Shown: positions 1,215-9,004 of the stretch, in pieces
How positions within the stretch are numbered: the stretch's first letter is position 1
How the letters are laid out: every line of letters starts with the position of its first letter
Source: Thermoguttaceae bacterium
GTDB taxonomy: Bacteria; Planctomycetota; Planctomycetia; Pirellulales; Thermoguttaceae
Direction: 5' to 3'
Assembly (NCBI GenBank): GCA_025060325.1
Contig: JANXBW010000007.1
Coordinates: 1 to 64,000 of the forward strand
DNA: 64,000 bases
The notes under the pieces: generated by a model
What the model saw: the letters and a program-made list of their open reading frames with translations, nothing else
Databases searched by the model: none
What the model was told of the DNA's origin: nothing
Position numbers and translations under genes: made by a program

Positions 1215-3056
1215 TTAAGATCCCGACTGAGGTTCCAGAAGGAGCACGGGCACTTCGTCGCCAGCGGTGGCTTCGTCCCTTGGGCCCTTTGGAGCCTGCA
1301 CCGAAACGGGAAGCACTTTGTCCCCCTGCAGATCCCTGGCGGGTGAGGTACCAACCGGCCGGGAGGCAGCAATTGTTTGCGACCGTTTGGCTTCTCCTGC
1401 AACGATTGCCGGGGTGACCACTTCCCCTGGCCTCAGGCGGACTTGCCACCCCCCACCTAAAGCTTTGTACAGGGCCACCAAGTAAAGGGCGACATTGCCT
1501 CGACTTTCCGCCAGGGCATCTTGTTGCTGCAAAAGGACGCGCTGAGAGTCAATGAGCCTCTGATAATCGATGACACCCTGTTGATAAAGTGCGGTGGCCA
1601 GCTGCACCGCCTGTTCAGTGGCTCGGACCGAATCCGCCAAGGCAGCAGCCCGTTCTTTTTCCCGCAGGTAGGCGGCGATTGTTCCCTCCGCCTCCTCAGC
1701 AGCCCGCAGGACTGTTTCCTGATAGGCAAGAATCGCCTGACGCAGCCGAGAATCCTCGGCCCAAATACTGTTCCAAATCCGACCGTAGTTAAGAATCTTC
1801 CACGAGAATGCCGGACCGACACGGCCGGCGATGGCATCGCCGAGAAACAAATGCCCAAATTTTTCGGCCTCCCAGTTAAGTGTGCCGGTGATGGCAAAGT
1901 GTGGATAAAGATCCGCCTCCGCGATCCCGACACGGGCTGATTGCGCGGCCACGAGGCGTTCCATTTTCCTCACATCCGGGCGTTGACGAAGGAGGTCGGC
2001 CGGAAGCCCCACCACAACCTCCGCAGGAGGATCCGGAATCTTGCCCGTTCCCACAAGAGGATCGAGGTCCTGAGGGGGCATGCCCAAAAGGGTACACAGG
2101 CGGTTTTCCGCCCGACGGCGACCTAGCTCCAAAAGAGGAATAAGCGAGCGGGTAGTGGCGACGATAGCTTCCGCTTGACGAAGGTCGAGGCCGCTGACCA
2201 GCCCCGCCTCGAATCGGGCTTTGACAATGTCCAGGGTTTGCCGCTGGAGATCCAAATTCTGCCGGGCCAGGGCCAATCGTTCGTCAAACGTCCGGAGTTG
2301 GATGTAGTTTGTGGCCACCTCCGCTTGAAGAATGACAAGCACTTCGTCGTAGCCGGCTTCTTGGGCCTCCAAATTGGCTTCGGCAGCCTCAATGGCCCGG
2401 CGGAACCGTCCCCAGAAATCGAGCTCCCAAGCCGCTTCAAATCCCACACTCCAGTGGTCAAATCTGCGTCGAATGGGAAAGCGTCCCCACGGGAAGGCTT
2501 CGGCACTGAATTGATTGCGTTGGAAAGTCCCCTTCATTTCCTGCATCTGCGGCCAGAGCGTTCCGCGGGCAACTCCTAGCTGCGCCCGGGCCTCCACCAC
2601 CCGCTCTGCAGCAATTTGGAGAGGCAGGTTTTCGGCCGAAGCCATTTCGATGAGCCGGGTCAGCGTGGGATCATTAAATACCGCCCACCAGGCGACGTTC
2701 ACCGGCGTCTGTCCTGTCCCCTGGCGGCCCTGACTGGCGGTGGGCTCAACTTTCAGTTCGGGACTGGAGCTATCGATCCACTGGTCACTGACCTTGGCGT
2801 CCGGTCGGGCGTAATTTGGGCCGACCTTGAAGCCGTTTCGGACCCACTGGCGAAGGCTCGTTCGGCACCCGCTCCCGGCAAAACACAGGGAAACGGCCAG
2901 CAACGCGATTGCCCAACGGAGGAACCAGGAGCTCTTCCCGGCTGAACCTGCGCCCTGCTGGTTTAACAGGGGTGGGGCGGCTGGCAAATTTGCGGGGAAT
3001 GGTGAAATCCCCTTGCACCACACACCGCGATCAATAGACCGGTTGCGTAAATCCAT
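1215..3056 (-). CDS. RND efflux outer-membrane factor (NodT/OprM family)
   Basis: A TolC-type outer-membrane channel of 613 residues, the exit duct of a tripartite RND efflux pump. A hydrophobic segment ends in a cysteine at about residue 64 (FAGSGC), suggesting a lipoprotein, followed by KVGPNY, the usual start of mature NodT proteins. Two OEP repeats follow, with the landmarks AWELDFWGRF, DLRQAEA, LPADLLRQRPDVR and an Ala/Gln-rich helical C-terminal half. The ATG at 3056 has GGAGGAG nine bases upstream and is preferred over the ATG at 3074, but about 45 residues then precede the signal, so a later non-ATG start is possible. It is transcribed divergently from the TetR/adaptor/permease genes and is very likely their partner. 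A proline-rich tail of about 90 residues lies after the second OEP repeat. Confidence 0.9.
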   Translation of the reverse strand: MDLRNRSIDRGVWCKGISPFPANLPAAPPLLNQQGAGSAGKSSWFLRWAIALLAVSLCFAGSGCRTSLRQWVRNGFKVGPNYARPDAKVSDQWIDSSSPELKVEPTASQGRQGTGQTPVNVAWWAVFNDPTLTRLIEMASAENLPLQIAAERVVEARAQLGVARGTLWPQMQEMKGTFQRNQFSAEAFPWGRFPIRRRFDHWSVGFEAAWELDFWGRFRRAIEAAEANLEAQEAGYDEVLVILQAEVATNYIQLRTFDERLALARQNLDLQRQTLDIVKARFEAGLVSGLDLRQAEAIVATTRSLIPLLELGRRRAENRLCTLLGMPPQDLDPLVGTGKIPDPPAEVVVGLPADLLRQRPDVRKMERLVAAQSARVGIAEADLYPHFAITGTLNWEAEKFGHLFLGDAIAGRVGPAFSWKILNYGRIWNSIWAEDSRLRQAILAYQETVLRAAEEAEGTIAAYLREKERAAALADSVRATEQAVQLATALYQQGVIDYQRLIDSQRVLLQQQDALAESRGNVALYLVALYKALGGGWQVRLRPGEVVTPAIVAGEAKRSQTIAASRPVGTSPARDLQGDKVLPVSVQAPKGPRDEATAGDEVPVLLLEPQSGS

Positions 3057-3572
3057 TCTCTTGGGCTCCTCCATGAGCGCCGGATTTCCGCGGGTTTCCT
3101 CTCCCCGACAGCAATTTGGGAGCGGAGGGATCCAACCCGGCCGATGGTAGCAAGAATTTCTCCCCCAGGAGCGGGGAATGGTCTAAGTCCAACTTTGGCA
3201 GAGACCCCGGCCCCCGCCCGAAACAGGATCTTGGGTCGGCCCGGGCCTCCTGGCCATACCTTCCCTATTCTCATCATCTTCGGCAAACCACGATCAGCTT
3301 TCGAAGGAGTCACGGCTTTTCTGATTGCTGACAAATGCAACCGCGGGAGGCTCGGCCGGCCACAACCTTAATCCGGGTAATTTTGCTGACCGATATAACG
3401 ATGAACTGACTGATGGGTCAGAATTTCGGATCGCTGTATTGCCGCTCGAATGTAGATGGGGTAAAATAGACCGGGAGTCATTGAGGCGACCATCATTGCC
3501 CGATTTGGATTGCCCAGTTTGGCTTCGGCTTTGGTGAAGGACCTACCCTGCGCGTCGCGGAGAGGATCGCCG
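3057..3572. other. Divergent control region of the efflux genes
   Basis: This 516 bp spacer separates the outer-membrane factor gene (minus strand) from the TetR gene (plus strand) and should hold both promoters and the TetR operator. A good candidate promoter towards tetR is listed separately. An inverted pair CTGACC (3386-3391) and GGTCAG (3416-3421) is a weak operator candidate. No protein gene was seen. Confidence 0.5.
3439..3467 (+). promoter_or_regulatory. Candidate sigma70-type promoter for the tetR gene
   Basis: TTGCCG (3439-3444) and TAAAAT (3462-3467) are separated by exactly 17 bases, about 105 bases upstream of the chosen tetR start. The match is by eye; promoter consensus in this phylum is poorly defined. 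Confidence 0.45.
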
Positions 3573-4280
3573 ATGAGCTTCGAGCGGGAAACCCAGGGGG
3601 GAAAGTCGCTGGCGGCCCAATGCCGGGAAATTGCCACCGCGGCTATGCGGGAAGGGATTTTTCAGGCGGCACTGAAGGTTATCCGGGAGCGCGGCTTCGA
3701 AGGACTAACCATGGACCGTTTAGCAGAGGTGGCAGGGGTCGCAAAGGGCAGCATCTACAACTACTTCGCCACCAAGCAGTCGCTAATGGAGTTCATCTTT
3801 GAGCGGGTGGTAGGCCCGGCTTTGGAGCGGGCACGGCAGGTGGCGGCCTCCGCCCTCTCCCCCGTAGAAAAGCTCCGTGGCATTCTCCGCGAATGGGCGA
3901 ATCACTTCGCCAGCTACCGGGGTGTTTTTGAAATCATGTTTGCCGACCCGGTTATTCGGCATTTTTGTGCTGATGCTCGCCGGGGCAAGTACTCGGAAGG
4001 TGTCGCCATTTTTCAGTCCGTTTTTCAGGAGGGTGTCCAACAAGGTTTATTTCGGCCCATCGATCCCCACCTGGTGGCCGAGGTCTTGGTAGGGGCACTT
4101 GTGTTGCCAGTTGAGCGGGACTTGGAGTCTGGCCGGGTCCGCTCTCCGGAGGAGTGGGCCGACAACTTACTGGACATGCTCCTTTGGGGCCTTGCAGGCA
4201 AAGCTATCTCTGGCCCAATTGCCTCGGCGGGGGCAGATGAGGCTGCAAGGCTAAGTCCACAGTTAGCTCCCCGGCCTTGA
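3573..4280 (+). CDS. TetR/AcrR-family transcriptional regulator
   Basis: A 235-residue one-component repressor. The N-terminal helix-turn-helix is clear: an FQAALKVIRERGFEGLT segment, then the recognition region AEVAGVAKGSIYNYF, ending in the family hallmark YNYFATKQSLMEFIF. The remainder is the variable all-helical ligand-binding and dimerisation domain. The ATG at 3573 has AGAGGA eight bases upstream; an upstream TTG at 3510 is open in frame but lacks a ribosome-binding site. The gene lies directly before the adaptor and permease genes and divergent from the outer-membrane factor, the standard arrangement for a drug-sensing repressor of its own efflux operon. The ligand cannot be told from sequence. 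Confidence 0.9.
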   Translation: MSFERETQGGKSLAAQCREIATAAMREGIFQAALKVIRERGFEGLTMDRLAEVAGVAKGSIYNYFATKQSLMEFIFERVVGPALERARQVAASALSPVEKLRGILREWANHFASYRGVFEIMFADPVIRHFCADARRGKYSEGVAIFQSVFQEGVQQGLFRPIDPHLVAEVLVGALVLPVERDLESGRVRSPEEWADNLLDMLLWGLAGKAISGPIASAGADEAARLSPQLAPRP

Positions 4281-4452: not shown

Positions 4453-5715
4453 ATGGCTAGTCGGGGGACCTCCTGGCTGGTTGGTTTTGGAATTCTCATC
4501 GTTTGCGGTGCTGCCGTAGGGGTAGCCGCGTGGCAAGCAGGTAAAGGCGCAAACAACCGGCATCCGGTAGCAACTTCGGCCCCGGCTGAGGAACAAGCCG
4601 TAGGGGTAGTTGTCGGCTCGGCCGAGTGGCGGGAATTCCGTCAGGCAGTGAAGACCTCAGGCAGCGTTTACGCGGTGCATTACGCTCTTGTCTCGGCGCG
4701 GATTCCGGGCACACTCGATGCTGTTTATGTCCGCGAAGGAGACCGCGTTGAGGCGGGCAAGACCAAGCTCTTCCAAACTGACTCCCTGAAGCTTGCCAAA
4801 GCCCTGGCCATTGCCCAGGAGAATCTCAAAGTGGCCGAGGCGGCCCTCCGCGAAAAGGAGGCCTTAAAGGAAAAAACCCTTGTCGCCAAGGAGCAAGCGG
4901 AGCGCGATCTAAAGCGATACGAGGAGCTTTTGGCAGCCAACGGGGTGTCCCGGCAAACGGTGGAACACCAGCGGGCGCTTGTCCAGCAATTGGCGGCCGA
5001 TCTGAAGCATGTGGAGACACTAATCGACTTGGCCCGGGCTCAGTTGGAGCAGGCGCGTCTATCAGTTGGTATCGCCGAAAAGGATCTATCGGACTCGCTT
5101 GTCTATGCGCCTATCTCTGGCGTGGTGGAAGAGCGCTATCGCGAGCCAGGAGAGATGGCCGGGGCAGGAACTCCAGTACTAAAGATCTCCGATCCCACTG
5201 TGGTGGAAATTCGCGTGCATGTGCCCCAAGAGTATTATGGCTCGCTCCGGCCCGGGCAGACCCAGATGTTGGTCCGCGTGGGGGCACGCGAATTGCCCCC
5301 GCAACCGGTTTCATACAAGGCGCCCACCATCGACCTTCGTTCGCGCACGTTTGAGGTTCGCTGCCGCATTCAATCTCCCCCGGAGGATGTGGTACCGGGG
5401 GCGTTGGCCGATGTGACCATCATCTTGGAAGGCCGCAAGGGAGTCGGGGTGCCGCTTGATGCAGTTGTTCAGGCCGGCACCTCACCTGTCGTGTTTGCCG
5501 TCGAAAACGAACGGGTCCGCAAGGTCCCTGTGCGACTGGGACTCCGTACCGACGGGTACTACGAGGTGCTTGAAGGTATAAGCGCCGGCACACCGGTAGT
5601 TCTTTCGGGCCAGGGACGGTTAGACGACGGAACTCGTATTCGCATCTTGTCAACCAAAGATACCAAAGCGACAACTGTGACGGAACGACTCACCCGCCAA
5701 GAGCCAAGTGTTTAG
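4453..5715 (+). CDS. RND efflux periplasmic adaptor (membrane-fusion protein)
   Basis: The HlyD/AcrA-type adaptor (420 residues) bridges the inner-membrane permease to the outer-membrane channel. An N-terminal membrane anchor (about residues 9-28) is followed by the first half of the lipoyl/barrel-sandwich domain (ARIPGTLDAVYVREGDRVEAG). A long alpha-helical hairpin, rich in Ala, Glu, Lys and Gln, covers about residues 110-210. The second lipoyl half has YAPISGVVEERYREPGE, then come the beta-barrel and membrane-proximal domains. GGGAG lies nine bases before the ATG. It follows tetR by 172 bp and precedes the permease by about 150 bp, so the three are probably co-transcribed. Confidence 0.92.
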   Translation: MASRGTSWLVGFGILIVCGAAVGVAAWQAGKGANNRHPVATSAPAEEQAVGVVVGSAEWREFRQAVKTSGSVYAVHYALVSARIPGTLDAVYVREGDRVEAGKTKLFQTDSLKLAKALAIAQENLKVAEAALREKEALKEKTLVAKEQAERDLKRYEELLAANGVSRQTVEHQRALVQQLAADLKHVETLIDLARAQLEQARLSVGIAEKDLSDSLVYAPISGVVEERYREPGEMAGAGTPVLKISDPTVVEIRVHVPQEYYGSLRPGQTQMLVRVGARELPPQPVSYKAPTIDLRSRTFEVRCRIQSPPEDVVPGALADVTIILEGRKGVGVPLDAVVQAGTSPVVFAVENERVRKVPVRLGLRTDGYYEVLEGISAGTPVVLSGQGRLDDGTRIRILSTKDTKATTVTERLTRQEPSV

Positions 5716-5863
5716 CTGCCCTAGCTGCGGAGGCAGCTGGCTCGATAGACCGGCTAAATAAGGACCAAGTGTGGCGGCTCGTTAACAGGACTAACACGGG
5801 TTAAACCGACCATTCAGGACCGATATTTGTCAACAAAGCGGCGATTTGGAGTGGGCTAAGGCT

Positions 5864-8800
5864 ATGTGGCTTGTTGATATTTCCATTCGTCGACCAGTCG
5901 CGCTCACCTGCCTTTATATCGGGCTTGTCATCCTTGGCATTTACTCGTACCGGCAGATGCCGCTTGAACTACTGCCCAAGCTTGATGTCCCCTACATAAC
6001 GGTGGTAACTGTTTACCCGGGGGCATCGCCAGAAGACCTCGAGCTTGATGTGGCCAAACGAATCGAGGATGCGGTGCTAACCGTGGAGGGACTTAAGCAC
6101 GTCAGCTCCTCGTGCATGGAAAACGTGGTTGTCACCCTGCTTGAGTTCCAGCTTGGTACTGATGTTGACAGGGCGGCCACGGACGTCCGCGAAAAAATTG
6201 ACCTCATCCGCCGTGATTTGCCCGAGGGTGTGGAAGATCCCAAAATCGAAAAATTTGACATCAACGCGTCGCCTATCATCACCCTGGCCTTAGTGGGCGA
6301 CCAAACCGTCACTGTTGACGACCTCTATGACTACGCGGATAACACCCTGCGAGACCGCCTTACCACAATCGAGGGCGTAGCCGGCGTGCAGATCGTCGGT
6401 GGGGCGAAGCGGGAGGTGCGGGTGGAACTTGACCCAGAACGGCTATTTGCCCGCGGGTTAACCACTGCCGACGTGATGGAGGCCTTGCGGCGTGGCCTGG
6501 GGACAATCCCCTCCGGTCGCGTCCAGGAAGGAGGCACTGAGTTCTCTGTGACCTTTGACGCCGATCCCCGAACGGTAGAAGCTTTGGCCGATCTTGAGAT
6601 CGCCAACTTTGCCGGCCGGCGGGTCTACCTTCGGGACGTAGGCTCGGTGCGAATGGGCACCGAAGAACTTCGGCAGCTTGCTTGGCTGGATGGTCGCCCG
6701 GCCATTTCTATCCGCGTGGTGAAAAAAGCGGAGGCCAATGCTGTTGCCGTCACCCGGCAGGTCCGCCAACGGCTTGCGGAAATCCAGAAAATGCTTCCCC
6801 CGGGCATGGAGCTTGTTTGGGTAGCAGAAATCGGCCGTTTTATCGAACAAGTCAACCAAAGCGCCTGGCAGGACGTGGGGATGGGAATTGTGCTCACGGC
6901 CGCCATCCTCTTTGTATTCCTCTACAACCTCCGGTCGCTTCTGATCGTGGCTATCAGCATGCCCGTGACAATCGCGGTGGGGCTATTCTTTATGCGGGTG
7001 GCGGGGCTGGGATTAAATACGTCCACGCTTATCGCAATAGGCCTGTCAGTTGGGGTGCTGGTGACCAACTCGATCGTCGTGCTGGAGGCCATCTTAATGC
7101 GGCTTGCCCGGGGGATGAATCCTTGGGAGGCAGCTCGGATTGGCGCAAGCGAAGTGTTCATCGCCGTGCTTGCCAGCGCGACCACGAACATGGTGGTGCT
7201 CTTCCCCTTAGCCACGATGCAGACGCGGGTTGGACTTTTCATCGCCCCGCTTGCCATCACGATGTTTATTATGACCGTGGTGTCTCTATTTATTTCCTTC
7301 ACGTTGACGCCGATGCTTGCCTCCCTGTTTTTGCGAGAGCAAAGGGACGGTCGGACCGGCCTGCTTCAGCGGATAGCTCGGCTCTGGCAAGGGGGACTTG
7401 AGCGGTTGACCGAGGGCTACCGAAAAGTGCTTTGGCAGCTTACCCGCCCGGCTGTTGCCCTCTTGGTGGTCGCTTTGAGTATTGGTCTTCTTGTCCACGC
7501 GGGCTGGGTTGCCCGTCAATTGGGCACAAGCTTTATCGCTACCCCGGACATGGGCCAGGTGTACGTTAAGTTGGAATTTCCCACTTCATACACACTTGAG
7601 CGAACGGCGGAAATCGTCCGCCTAGCCGAGGCCCGAATGCGGGATCTGCCAGAGCTTAGGCATATTCTGTCGACGATTGGCAAAGTCGAAGGCGTCCTGG
7701 GGCAGGCGAGCGAGGGCGTGTTCCTTGCCCAGATCCTTGTTGTCTTCTCCGATAAAGATCGCCGGTCGTTGACGATCGAGGAGTTGATGGAGCAAATTCG
7801 TCAGCGGATTGCCGATCTGCCGGATGCCGCTATCACGGTAAGCCAGCCGTCGGCGATCGGTGGCCAAAGCTACCCGATTGAAATGGAAATTGCCGGCGAA
7901 GACCTTAAGACGCTTGACCGCCTGGCCGACCGAACGTTAGCGCTTGCCCGAGAAATACCAGGAATTTTGGACGCGACCACCACGGTCCGCCCGGGTAAGC
8001 CTCGGCTAAGAATCACTCCGCGCCGGGAAATCCTCGGCGACTTGGGAATTCCTTCAACGGCTGTGGGCTTAACCCTCCGGGGCAATTTGGAAGGGATCGA
8101 AGCCGGCACATTCAAAATGGGCGCGCGGAACTATGACATCGTCGTTTCACTGAAGAAAAGTGAAGGCCGGGACCAAGTTTGGGAATATCAATTTCCCGGC
8201 AGGCCGGGGCAACCTCTAGTGCTTACTTCGTTTGCGAGCATTGTGCAGGACGAGGTTCCGATCCAGATCTTTCGGAAAGACAAGGAGCGTGTGCAAAAGC
8301 TCACTGCCCAATTGGCTGAAGGGGTGGCCCTCGGGAACGCGGCAGCTCAACTCTCGAATGCAATCCGGGAAAAGGCGGGATTCCCGCCGGGCTATTCCTT
8401 CCGCTTTACGGGGATTTTTGAGGTGATGACCGAGGGCCTGGGCGGACTGGCAGAGGCCGGGGTGCTTTCGTTACTTTTGGTCTACCTTTGCCTTGCTGCC
8501 ATCCTGGAGTCGTTCCGACAGCCCTTCCTGGTGATGGCAACTGTGCCCCTTGCTCTTGTGGGAACCTTTTGGGCCCTAGGTCTGACTGGCGAGAGTCTCA
8601 GCATCTTCGCCGTGATGGGAATAGTCATTATGATAGGTATTGTAGTAAACAATGCTATCCTTATCGTGGACCGGCTGAATATCATCCGGCAAACCACGGC
8701 AACCACTTGCACCTCGGCAATGATCGATGCCGCTTGCGACCGACTCCAGGCGCAGCTCATGATCACCCTGGCGGCGGTAATGGGCATGCTTCCCATGGCT

Positions 8801-9004
8801 GTAAGCCGCGGCCTGGGGGCTGAGCTTCGCAATGGCGTCGGGATTGCTTCGGCCGGGGGGATCCTGGTATCCGCCACACTGACGTTATTTGTCGTCCCGG
8901 CCCTTTACCTCTTGGCCCACTGTCGCGAGCGCAGAAGCTCCGCCCCTGCCAGCAGCACCGATTCGGCAAGTCTCGAGCCGCTCCCCGAGGAAAGGCAGGA
9001 GTAA
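5864..9004 (+). CDS. RND-superfamily efflux permease (AcrB-like) with atypical relay residues
   Basis: A 1046-residue inner-membrane pump subunit of the AcrB/HAE1 type. It starts with the typical SIRRPVALTCLYIGLVILG helix 1 and has two large periplasmic loops (about residues 35-335 and 555-855), each followed by a bundle of transmembrane helices. Key oddity: in transmembrane helix 4, where AcrB has the proton-carrying Asp407-Asp408 in LLVDDAIVV, this protein reads VLVTNSIVV, with Thr401-Asn402. In helix 10 the position of Lys940 is Asn929 (GIVVNNAIL). The proton relay is therefore missing, although the protein is otherwise full length. ATG 5864 is chosen over an in-frame TTG at 5846 because helix 1 normally begins within a few residues of the start. 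Together with the adaptor and outer-membrane factor it forms a complete tripartite pump set. Confidence 0.93.
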   Translation: MWLVDISIRRPVALTCLYIGLVILGIYSYRQMPLELLPKLDVPYITVVTVYPGASPEDLELDVAKRIEDAVLTVEGLKHVSSSCMENVVVTLLEFQLGTDVDRAATDVREKIDLIRRDLPEGVEDPKIEKFDINASPIITLALVGDQTVTVDDLYDYADNTLRDRLTTIEGVAGVQIVGGAKREVRVELDPERLFARGLTTADVMEALRRGLGTIPSGRVQEGGTEFSVTFDADPRTVEALADLEIANFAGRRVYLRDVGSVRMGTEELRQLAWLDGRPAISIRVVKKAEANAVAVTRQVRQRLAEIQKMLPPGMELVWVAEIGRFIEQVNQSAWQDVGMGIVLTAAILFVFLYNLRSLLIVAISMPVTIAVGLFFMRVAGLGLNTSTLIAIGLSVGVLVTNSIVVLEAILMRLARGMNPWEAARIGASEVFIAVLASATTNMVVLFPLATMQTRVGLFIAPLAITMFIMTVVSLFISFTLTPMLASLFLREQRDGRTGLLQRIARLWQGGLERLTEGYRKVLWQLTRPAVALLVVALSIGLLVHAGWVARQLGTSFIATPDMGQVYVKLEFPTSYTLERTAEIVRLAEARMRDLPELRHILSTIGKVEGVLGQASEGVFLAQILVVFSDKDRRSLTIEELMEQIRQRIADLPDAAITVSQPSAIGGQSYPIEMEIAGEDLKTLDRLADRTLALAREIPGILDATTTVRPGKPRLRITPRREILGDLGIPSTAVGLTLRGNLEGIEAGTFKMGARNYDIVVSLKKSEGRDQVWEYQFPGRPGQPLVLTSFASIVQDEVPIQIFRKDKERVQKLTAQLAEGVALGNAAAQLSNAIREKAGFPPGYSFRFTGIFEVMTEGLGGLAEAGVLSLLLVYLCLAAILESFRQPFLVMATVPLALVGTFWALGLTGESLSIFAVMGIVIMIGIVVNNAILIVDRLNIIRQTTATTCTSAMIDAACDRLQAQLMITLAAVMGMLPMAVSRGLGAELRNGVGIASAGGILVSATLTLFVVPALYLLAHCRERRSSAPASSTDSASLEPLPEERQE

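Follow-up and report, generated by a model that had tools for sequence, protein, structure and literature searches.

A predicted RND exporter clade with conserved neutral residues at the site of the AcrB proton relay

INTRODUCTION

The closest described relatives of the transporter studied here are the RND exporters of the HAE-1 type, such as AcrB, AcrD, MdtB, and MdtC, whose proton relay is formed by D407, D408, and K940 together with the auxiliary pair R971 and T978 (AcrB numbering). In one study, the AcrB mutants D407N, D408N, K940A, and R971A neither translocated protons nor supported efflux (PMC4359379). Two other papers assign S481 to the hydrogen-bond network of the relay and describe L449 and I445 as flanking an inhibitor that forms a salt bridge with D408 and occupies the cavity bounded by TM4, TM5, and TM10 (PMC8749003, PMC13139501).

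Here, we analyzed a stretch of 64,000 nucleotides (referred to as the window) from a Thermoguttaceae bacterium (assembly GCA_025060325.1, contig JANXBW010000007.1, positions 1 to 64,000). A previous inspection of the letters alone (the sequence-only reading) had claimed that an RND permease in it carries Thr401, Asn402, and Asn929 in place of Asp407, Asp408, and Lys940 of AcrB, while being otherwise intact and accompanied by TetR, adaptor, and outer membrane factor (OMF) genes.

RESULTS

Permease gene and operon in the window

The locus comprises the following features (window coordinates).

1215 to 3074, minus strand: outer membrane factor (NodT/OEP, profile matches), 619 aa, divergent
3510 to 4280, plus strand: TetR-family regulator (profile match); longest ORF, with a TTG start, true start unsure
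4453 to 5715, plus strand: periplasmic adaptor (RND_mfp and HlyD_D23, profile matches), 420 aa
5864 to 9004, plus strand: relay-less RND permease, 1046 aa, ATG start; an alternative TTG start is possible at 5846 (18 bases upstream)
7064 to 7069, plus strand: codons T401-N402 (TM4), at AcrB D407-D408; the DNA reads ACC AAC
7085 to 7087, plus strand: codon E408 (AcrB E414), the only acidic TM residue kept throughout relay-less and D-D-K permeases alike
7175 to 7189, plus strand: codons S438 to N442 (TM5), with S438, T441, and N442 at AcrB I445, V448, and L449; clade-specific partners of the site
8648 to 8653, plus strand: codons N929-N930 (TM10), at AcrB K940-N941
8741 to 8743, plus strand: codon R960, matching AcrB R971; retained in this permease, relaxed across the clade
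8762 to 8764, plus strand: codon I967, at AcrB T978; T lost here

The permease gene follows those of the TetR regulator and the adaptor on the plus strand, with the OMF gene divergent on the minus strand. Its product matched the Pfam profile ACR_tran (PF00873) with 757 bits (cut-off, 28), covering positions 2 to 1021 of 1021. None of 13 NCBIfam RND subfamily models, including RND_permease_1 and 2, MdtB, MdtC, AcrB, AcrD, OqxB, and 2A0602, reached its curated cut-off, the best score being that of NF033617 (646.5 bits versus a cut-off of 1250), and the model of the CusA/CzcA heavy-metal RND transporters (TIGR00914, 2A0601) gave 377.5 bits, under its cut-off of 701.45. The three replacements at the relay were borne out by the DNA and by a MAFFT alignment with AcrB of E. 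coli K-12, MdtB, MdtC, and CusA, in which D407, D408, and K940 correspond to T401, N402, and N929, E414 to E408, R971 to R960, and T978 to I967. The permease has an AcrB-like fold over its whole length and adaptor and OMF genes alongside, as HAE-1-type exporters do, and lacks both their relay (T, N, and N) and their auxiliary pair (R kept, T replaced by I). Fold match and gene neighbors agree with the intact tripartite setting read before. We assign the gene product as the permease component of a tripartite RND exporter linked to a TetR regulator, with export as its predicted function; its subfamily is best read as a tripartite RND branch that is very probably no longer driven by titration of the TM4 aspartates.

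The AF2 model of the permease (57 sequences; pLDDT, 85.3) gave a VIA Z of 53.8 and an rmsd of 2.6 over 1001 residues against Klebsiella AcrB chain 8p1i_C. It matched AcrB, AcrD, and AdeB over the whole length, CusA (3ne5) was also among the structural matches, and identity to the chains heading these matches (AcrB, AcrD, AdeB, MdtF, and others) was 22 to 26%. The model was closest to O-state chains (rmsd of 2.5 to 3.1 to the listed chain C entries versus 3.8 to 4.6 to many A and B chains; the assignment of chains to states is partly our assumption). An O-like state as the sign of a locked pump was considered and dropped, since a D-D-K control from Desulfosporosinus (L117), modeled with 58 alignment rows (the same 57 plus L119), also matched O-like chains best. 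The modeled TM10 has a break at residue 927, just ahead of N929-N930 (window positions 8639 to 8653), while the helix of the D-D-K control is unbroken; this break may be noise.

Distribution and phylogeny of relay-less permeases

Nine orthologues at 59 to 80% identity were found among 59 relatives. All nine have T-N at 407/408, and N occupies position 940 in all eight whose sequence reaches TM10, so that the aspartates, whose presence in close homologues would have pointed to a local sequencing error, are missing there too. The 20 weaker matches (L017 to L036, at most 34% identical) comprised 17 D-D-K pumps, one D-N/N, one D-D/A, and one D-D sequence without TM10.

Named genomes were scanned with two peptide patterns located upstream of TM2, in the periplasmic part, and the TM4 motif was not used for picking. 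The loci were ranked by likeness to the window permease, and the best 80 of 109 were taken. Both aspartates were absent in 75 of these best 80 loci, namely, in 74 of the 75 at at least 35% identity and in L120; the other five were L096, with D only at 408, and four D-D-K pumps. Among these best 80 of 109 loci, planctomycete record titles named Thermoguttaceae, Pirellulales, Phycisphaerae, and Sedimentisphaerales, and further titles named Desulfobacteraceae, Kiritimatiellae, Lentisphaerae/Victivallales, Verrucomicrobia, Hydrogenedentes, Omnitrophota, Sumerlaeota, Krumholzibacteriia, and others, with the caveat that most records are metagenome assembled and single taxon titles may therefore be wrong. 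Starting from L120 (Bacteriovoracaceae), nine more members were found among 144 genomes of its phylum.

Relay-less permeases were present in 10 of 294 planctomycete genomes, that of the window included, and the other 13 genomes above threshold had D-D-K pumps. Scores were bimodal (>950 versus ≤720 bits), save for one contig-edge fragment. In the order to which the window belongs, 14 of 246 genomes carry the permease by score (at least 1373 bits; the next, 714), motifs having been read for part of them only. Three carriers, Planctomycetes bacterium CA13, Desulfosarcina cetonica JCM 12296, and Desulfatitalea alkaliphila, are probably in culture, since their titles are not marked as metagenome assembled, and cultured carriers would allow the energy source to be tested directly.

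For residue counts, merging rows at 98.5% identity, which removed 13 and left 181, gave a nonredundant set of 91 relay-less permeases (window gene included), 68 D-D-K pumps, and 22 other RNDs. Four halves of paralogues from the window's own genome, the duplicate L150, and any row with an identical counterpart were left out, and loci L209 to L215 lie outside this alignment. Merging at 90% identity (84 relay-less, 61 D-D-K) gave the same pattern.

In a 60-row mixture-model tree built with the trait columns removed, all 24 sampled members, including L096, fell behind one branch (SH-aLRT, 100). FastTree with 92 rows recovered the same grouping once L120, labeled "other" in that run, was counted as the relay-less permease that it is; it falls inside the clade. 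The sister group differed, being D-other pumps with FastTree versus D-D-K pumps in the mixture-model tree. The window permease lies inside the supported clade and has N408, T448-N449, and N940, with neither D407 nor D408. Phylogenetically, the sampled relay-less permeases are placed in a single old clade that spans several phyla, with sequences as little as 27% identical.

A conserved neutral set at the relay site

N402 (position 408) is Asn in 91 of 91 relay-less genes and N929 (position 940) in all 86 with data. A third asparagine, N442 on TM5 (position 449), is found in 90 of 90 relay-less genes with data and in none of the 68 D-D-K pumps or the 22 other RNDs. To these add T441 (position 448; Thr in 90/90) and S438 (position 445; Ser in 87/90), while S481 (AcrB numbering) is kept in both sets (90/90 and 68/68). 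The position of T401 varies (T 74, A 13, S 3, and M 1 of 91). The auxiliary pair, fixed in 68 of 68 D-D-K pumps, is relaxed: R971 is R in 47 of 85 relay-less genes (also K 16, Q 10, E 10, and T 2), and T978 is T in only 19 of 85. Given that L449, I445, and S481 of AcrB are in or contact the cavity of D407, D408, and K940, the clade-specific residues would line the emptied relay site, N442 being placed in the cavity by alignment to AcrB. The pattern argues that the site was refitted in the clade and did not decay. Such a coordinated, clade-wide remodeling of the cavity, with a third invariant Asn on TM5, goes beyond what had been read from the single gene.

One clade member, L096 (L096:5214-8258), has M-D on TM4 (D at 408), with H at position 449 and S at both 940 and 971. 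The site thus appears to have changed jointly, in the direction of ionisable residues again. As this D408-bearing member is also without N449, N940, and R971, the positions of the site seem to move as a unit.

Ionisable residues in the transmembrane core

Over a TM core of 165 columns, delimited by what we take to be the TM boundaries of AcrB, the mean number of ionisable residues was 0.96 in 76 relay-less permeases versus 5.33 in 67 D-D-K pumps. Fifty-eight of the 76 had no acid in the core, and 19 had no ionisable residue at all, while at least two acids were found in 67 of 67 D-D-K pumps. The core acids of relay-less permeases sit at TM2 positions 342, 343, and 346 and, once, at 440; the window permease has one, D337, plus H545. 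The only acidic TM residue common to the whole clade is E414 (91/91), which is equally invariant in D-D-K pumps (68/68). At TM11 position 970, near the cytoplasmic end, D or E occurs in 68 of 85 relay-less versus 5 of 68 D-D-K sequences, and the proton-entry residues of AcrB, E346 and D924, are conserved neither in the clade nor across the D-D-K set. An acidic replacement one turn away, a way out foreseen in the sequence-only reading, was looked for in the alignment, and no new acid fills the site. By sequence comparison, no core acid appears to take over from D407/D408 in the clade.

E864 (AcrB S875; window positions 8453 to 8455), close to where TM8 begins, is a Glu enriched in the clade at a position that is mostly hydrophobic in D-D-K pumps. 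It was rejected as a replacement acid, as it is not universal (E in 69 of 86, but K 9, N 3, T 3, G 1, and S 1).

Operon context and porter domain across the clade

Operons were compared in 76 clade loci from the named-genome scan (best 80 of 109), L096 and L120 included. The adaptor gene lies directly upstream of the permease in 70 of the 73 loci with room and ≤460 bases away in two more; a TetR gene is found within 6 kb in 46 of 54 and an OMF gene in 43 of 54. Only 2 of the 76 loci have a second RND frame, which in L065 has the residues of a D-D-K pump. Judged by their surroundings, clade members would still be pumps.

When sequences of equal overall identity are compared, conservation is shifted from the TM domain to the porter domain in the clade as against the D-D-K set, which mixes several families of paralogues (TM/porter identity ratio in the 50% bin, 1.15 versus 1.39). 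In place of the aromatic residues of the AcrB deep pocket, F610, F615, F617, and F628, 95 rows have mostly L, K, E, and L, while the D-D-K set is more often aromatic at 610 and 628 and mixed at 615 and 617. We infer a substrate narrower and more polar than that of AcrB.

Some loci had unusual architectures. In a Kiritimatiellae MAG, a single frame of 1476 aa (L090:8001-12428) matched both permease and OMF profiles, a possible fusion of the two, and the permease frame of L095 has 1472 aa. In L120, whose operon consists of TetR, OMF, a 235-aa protein, and the permease, the 235-aa protein in the adaptor position (L120:7291-7995) had no Pfam match and is perhaps a minimal adaptor.

DISCUSSION

Energy source

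Since the AcrB relay mutants are inactive, the AcrB scheme cannot simply run with the residues of this permease, and protonation of carboxylates on TM4 is very probably not what drives the pump. What replaces it can be put forward only tentatively. In our preferred reading, the H+-titratable relay (D407, D408, and K940, with R971 and T978) was dismantled in one old clade, and the same membrane cavity was refitted with a neutral hydrogen-bonding set consisting of N402, S438, N442, S474, and N929, with T401. Neutral oxygens of this set might hold a cation, Na+ being the likeliest. Its binding and release would then do the switching between the two TM repeats that protonation does otherwise, and the porter domain would still cycle. 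A cation site is suggested because the invariant neutral oxygens occur at one place. Neutral Na+ sites are found in other transporter folds, e.g., the Na2 site of LeuT, and Na+ as the bound ion is a guess from chemistry. Against this reading, the same conservation would be expected of an inert lock held by hydrogen bonds, the relaxation of R971 and T978 fits a loss of coupling equally well, and the variation at T401 (T in 74 of 91) speaks against it as an obligatory ligand. The Na+-pumping NADH dehydrogenase was rejected as a correlate of the clade, since NqrA does not track relay-less carriers: it was found in 3 of 10 carriers versus 9 of 27 noncarriers of the same family (three of the nine being fragments or weak matches), with no association, and the genome of the window yielded no match. 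These counts neither support nor exclude Na+.

An uncoupled exporter, in which hydrogen bonds of the Asn residues hold a neutral TM scaffold and the trimer, as a conduit of the regulated or facilitated kind, lets periplasmic substrate run down its gradient into adaptor and OMF, fits the data nearly as well as the cation site, and we hold it to be possible, if on the unlikely side. It would account for the core being without any acid (58/76) or any ionisable residue (19/76), for the relaxed R971 and T978, and for a TM domain less conserved relative to the porter, although this last ratio sets a single clade against a number of D-D-K families that are paralogues and is weak either way. However, three Asn and a Ser have remained invariant in sequences down to 27% identical, and a passive scaffold seems to need less.

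A shifted proton relay, with the proton taken up by E408 (AcrB E414) alone or together with the acid at TM11 position 970, is improbable. E414 is invariant in the clade and position 970 is enriched in acids there, but E414 is just as invariant in D-D-K pumps and hence not a new carrier, and the acid at 970 is neither universal nor far from the cytoplasmic end of TM11; E346 and D924 do not decide the matter, because they are unconserved in both sets. Of the sequence-only reading, therefore, the relay loss and the intact tripartite setting stand, while its shifted relay is weakened, E414 being common to D-D-K pumps; its other two proposals, another ion and a non-cycling component, are both kept as candidates.

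We consider it very unlikely that the permease, with its relay dead, is part of a mixed trimer in which another RND protomer supplies the power. MdtB and MdtC do have unequal energetic roles in one complex (PMC4338810), but a second RND frame was found in only 2 of 76 clade loci (a D-D-K pump in L065). In the window's draft genome (95.6% complete), a Pfam search found no D-D-K pump and two other RND permeases (DD/N and DD/R), which are ca. 24% identical, of other types, and on other contigs (C42 and C55). The mixed trimer was set aside on this gene content. Sequencing error is refuted as the cause of the relay loss, and misassembly or gene decay is hardly conceivable, given T-N in nine of nine orthologues and the absence of both aspartates in 75 of the best 80 of 109 loci.

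Comparison with known systems

No description of natural RND permeases without these residues was recognized in the open-licence full text that was searched. Borrelia BesB might be without relay residues. The available parts of PMC2279261 and PMC3807786 do not state such a loss.

We find it somewhat probable that the clade is either an RND exporter running on an all-neutral Asn/Ser cation site or a family of RND exporters that evolution has kept in an uncoupled, trans-envelope form. The former would be the first RND without any coupling carboxylate and the latter the first conserved uncoupled trans-envelope RND family; either would be an exception to the rule by which the center of the membrane domain holds an acidic residue in all RND transporters. 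By sequence, the clade, which spans several phyla with a conserved replacement of its own, runs counter to this statement as worded in the parts of the literature available.

AcrB, AcrD, MdtB, and MdtC have in common with the permease the whole-length fold, the ACR_tran domain, and the adaptor, OMF, and TetR genes. Against AcrB-type chains, the permease is only 22 to 26% identical, has D407, D408, K940, and T978 replaced and Asn at 449, and has a nearly uncharged TM core. CusA (HME) shares fold and tripartite setting and departs from D-D-K as well (D-A/E), but it keeps the first aspartate, which the relay-less clade does not. The D-N/N permeases (L154 to L156, L168, L029, and L207) resemble the clade in having N at 408 and 940 and, in five of six, T at 448; they differ in keeping D407, R971, and T978 in six of six and in lacking N449 (T in five, F in one). 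One of them, L207, is carried by a 2.6-Mb record labeled as an Acetoanaerobium plasmid, a size that suggests a chromosome instead. The AcrB mutants D407N, D408N, and K940A have neutral relay residues like the clade, yet they are inactive (PMC4359379), while the neutral site of the clade is conserved. The clade may serve as a natural experiment on how ion coupling relates to the RND cycle, with a neutral site kept by evolution and with the D-N/N and D-D/K pumps, and L096 differing at several positions together, as points of comparison.
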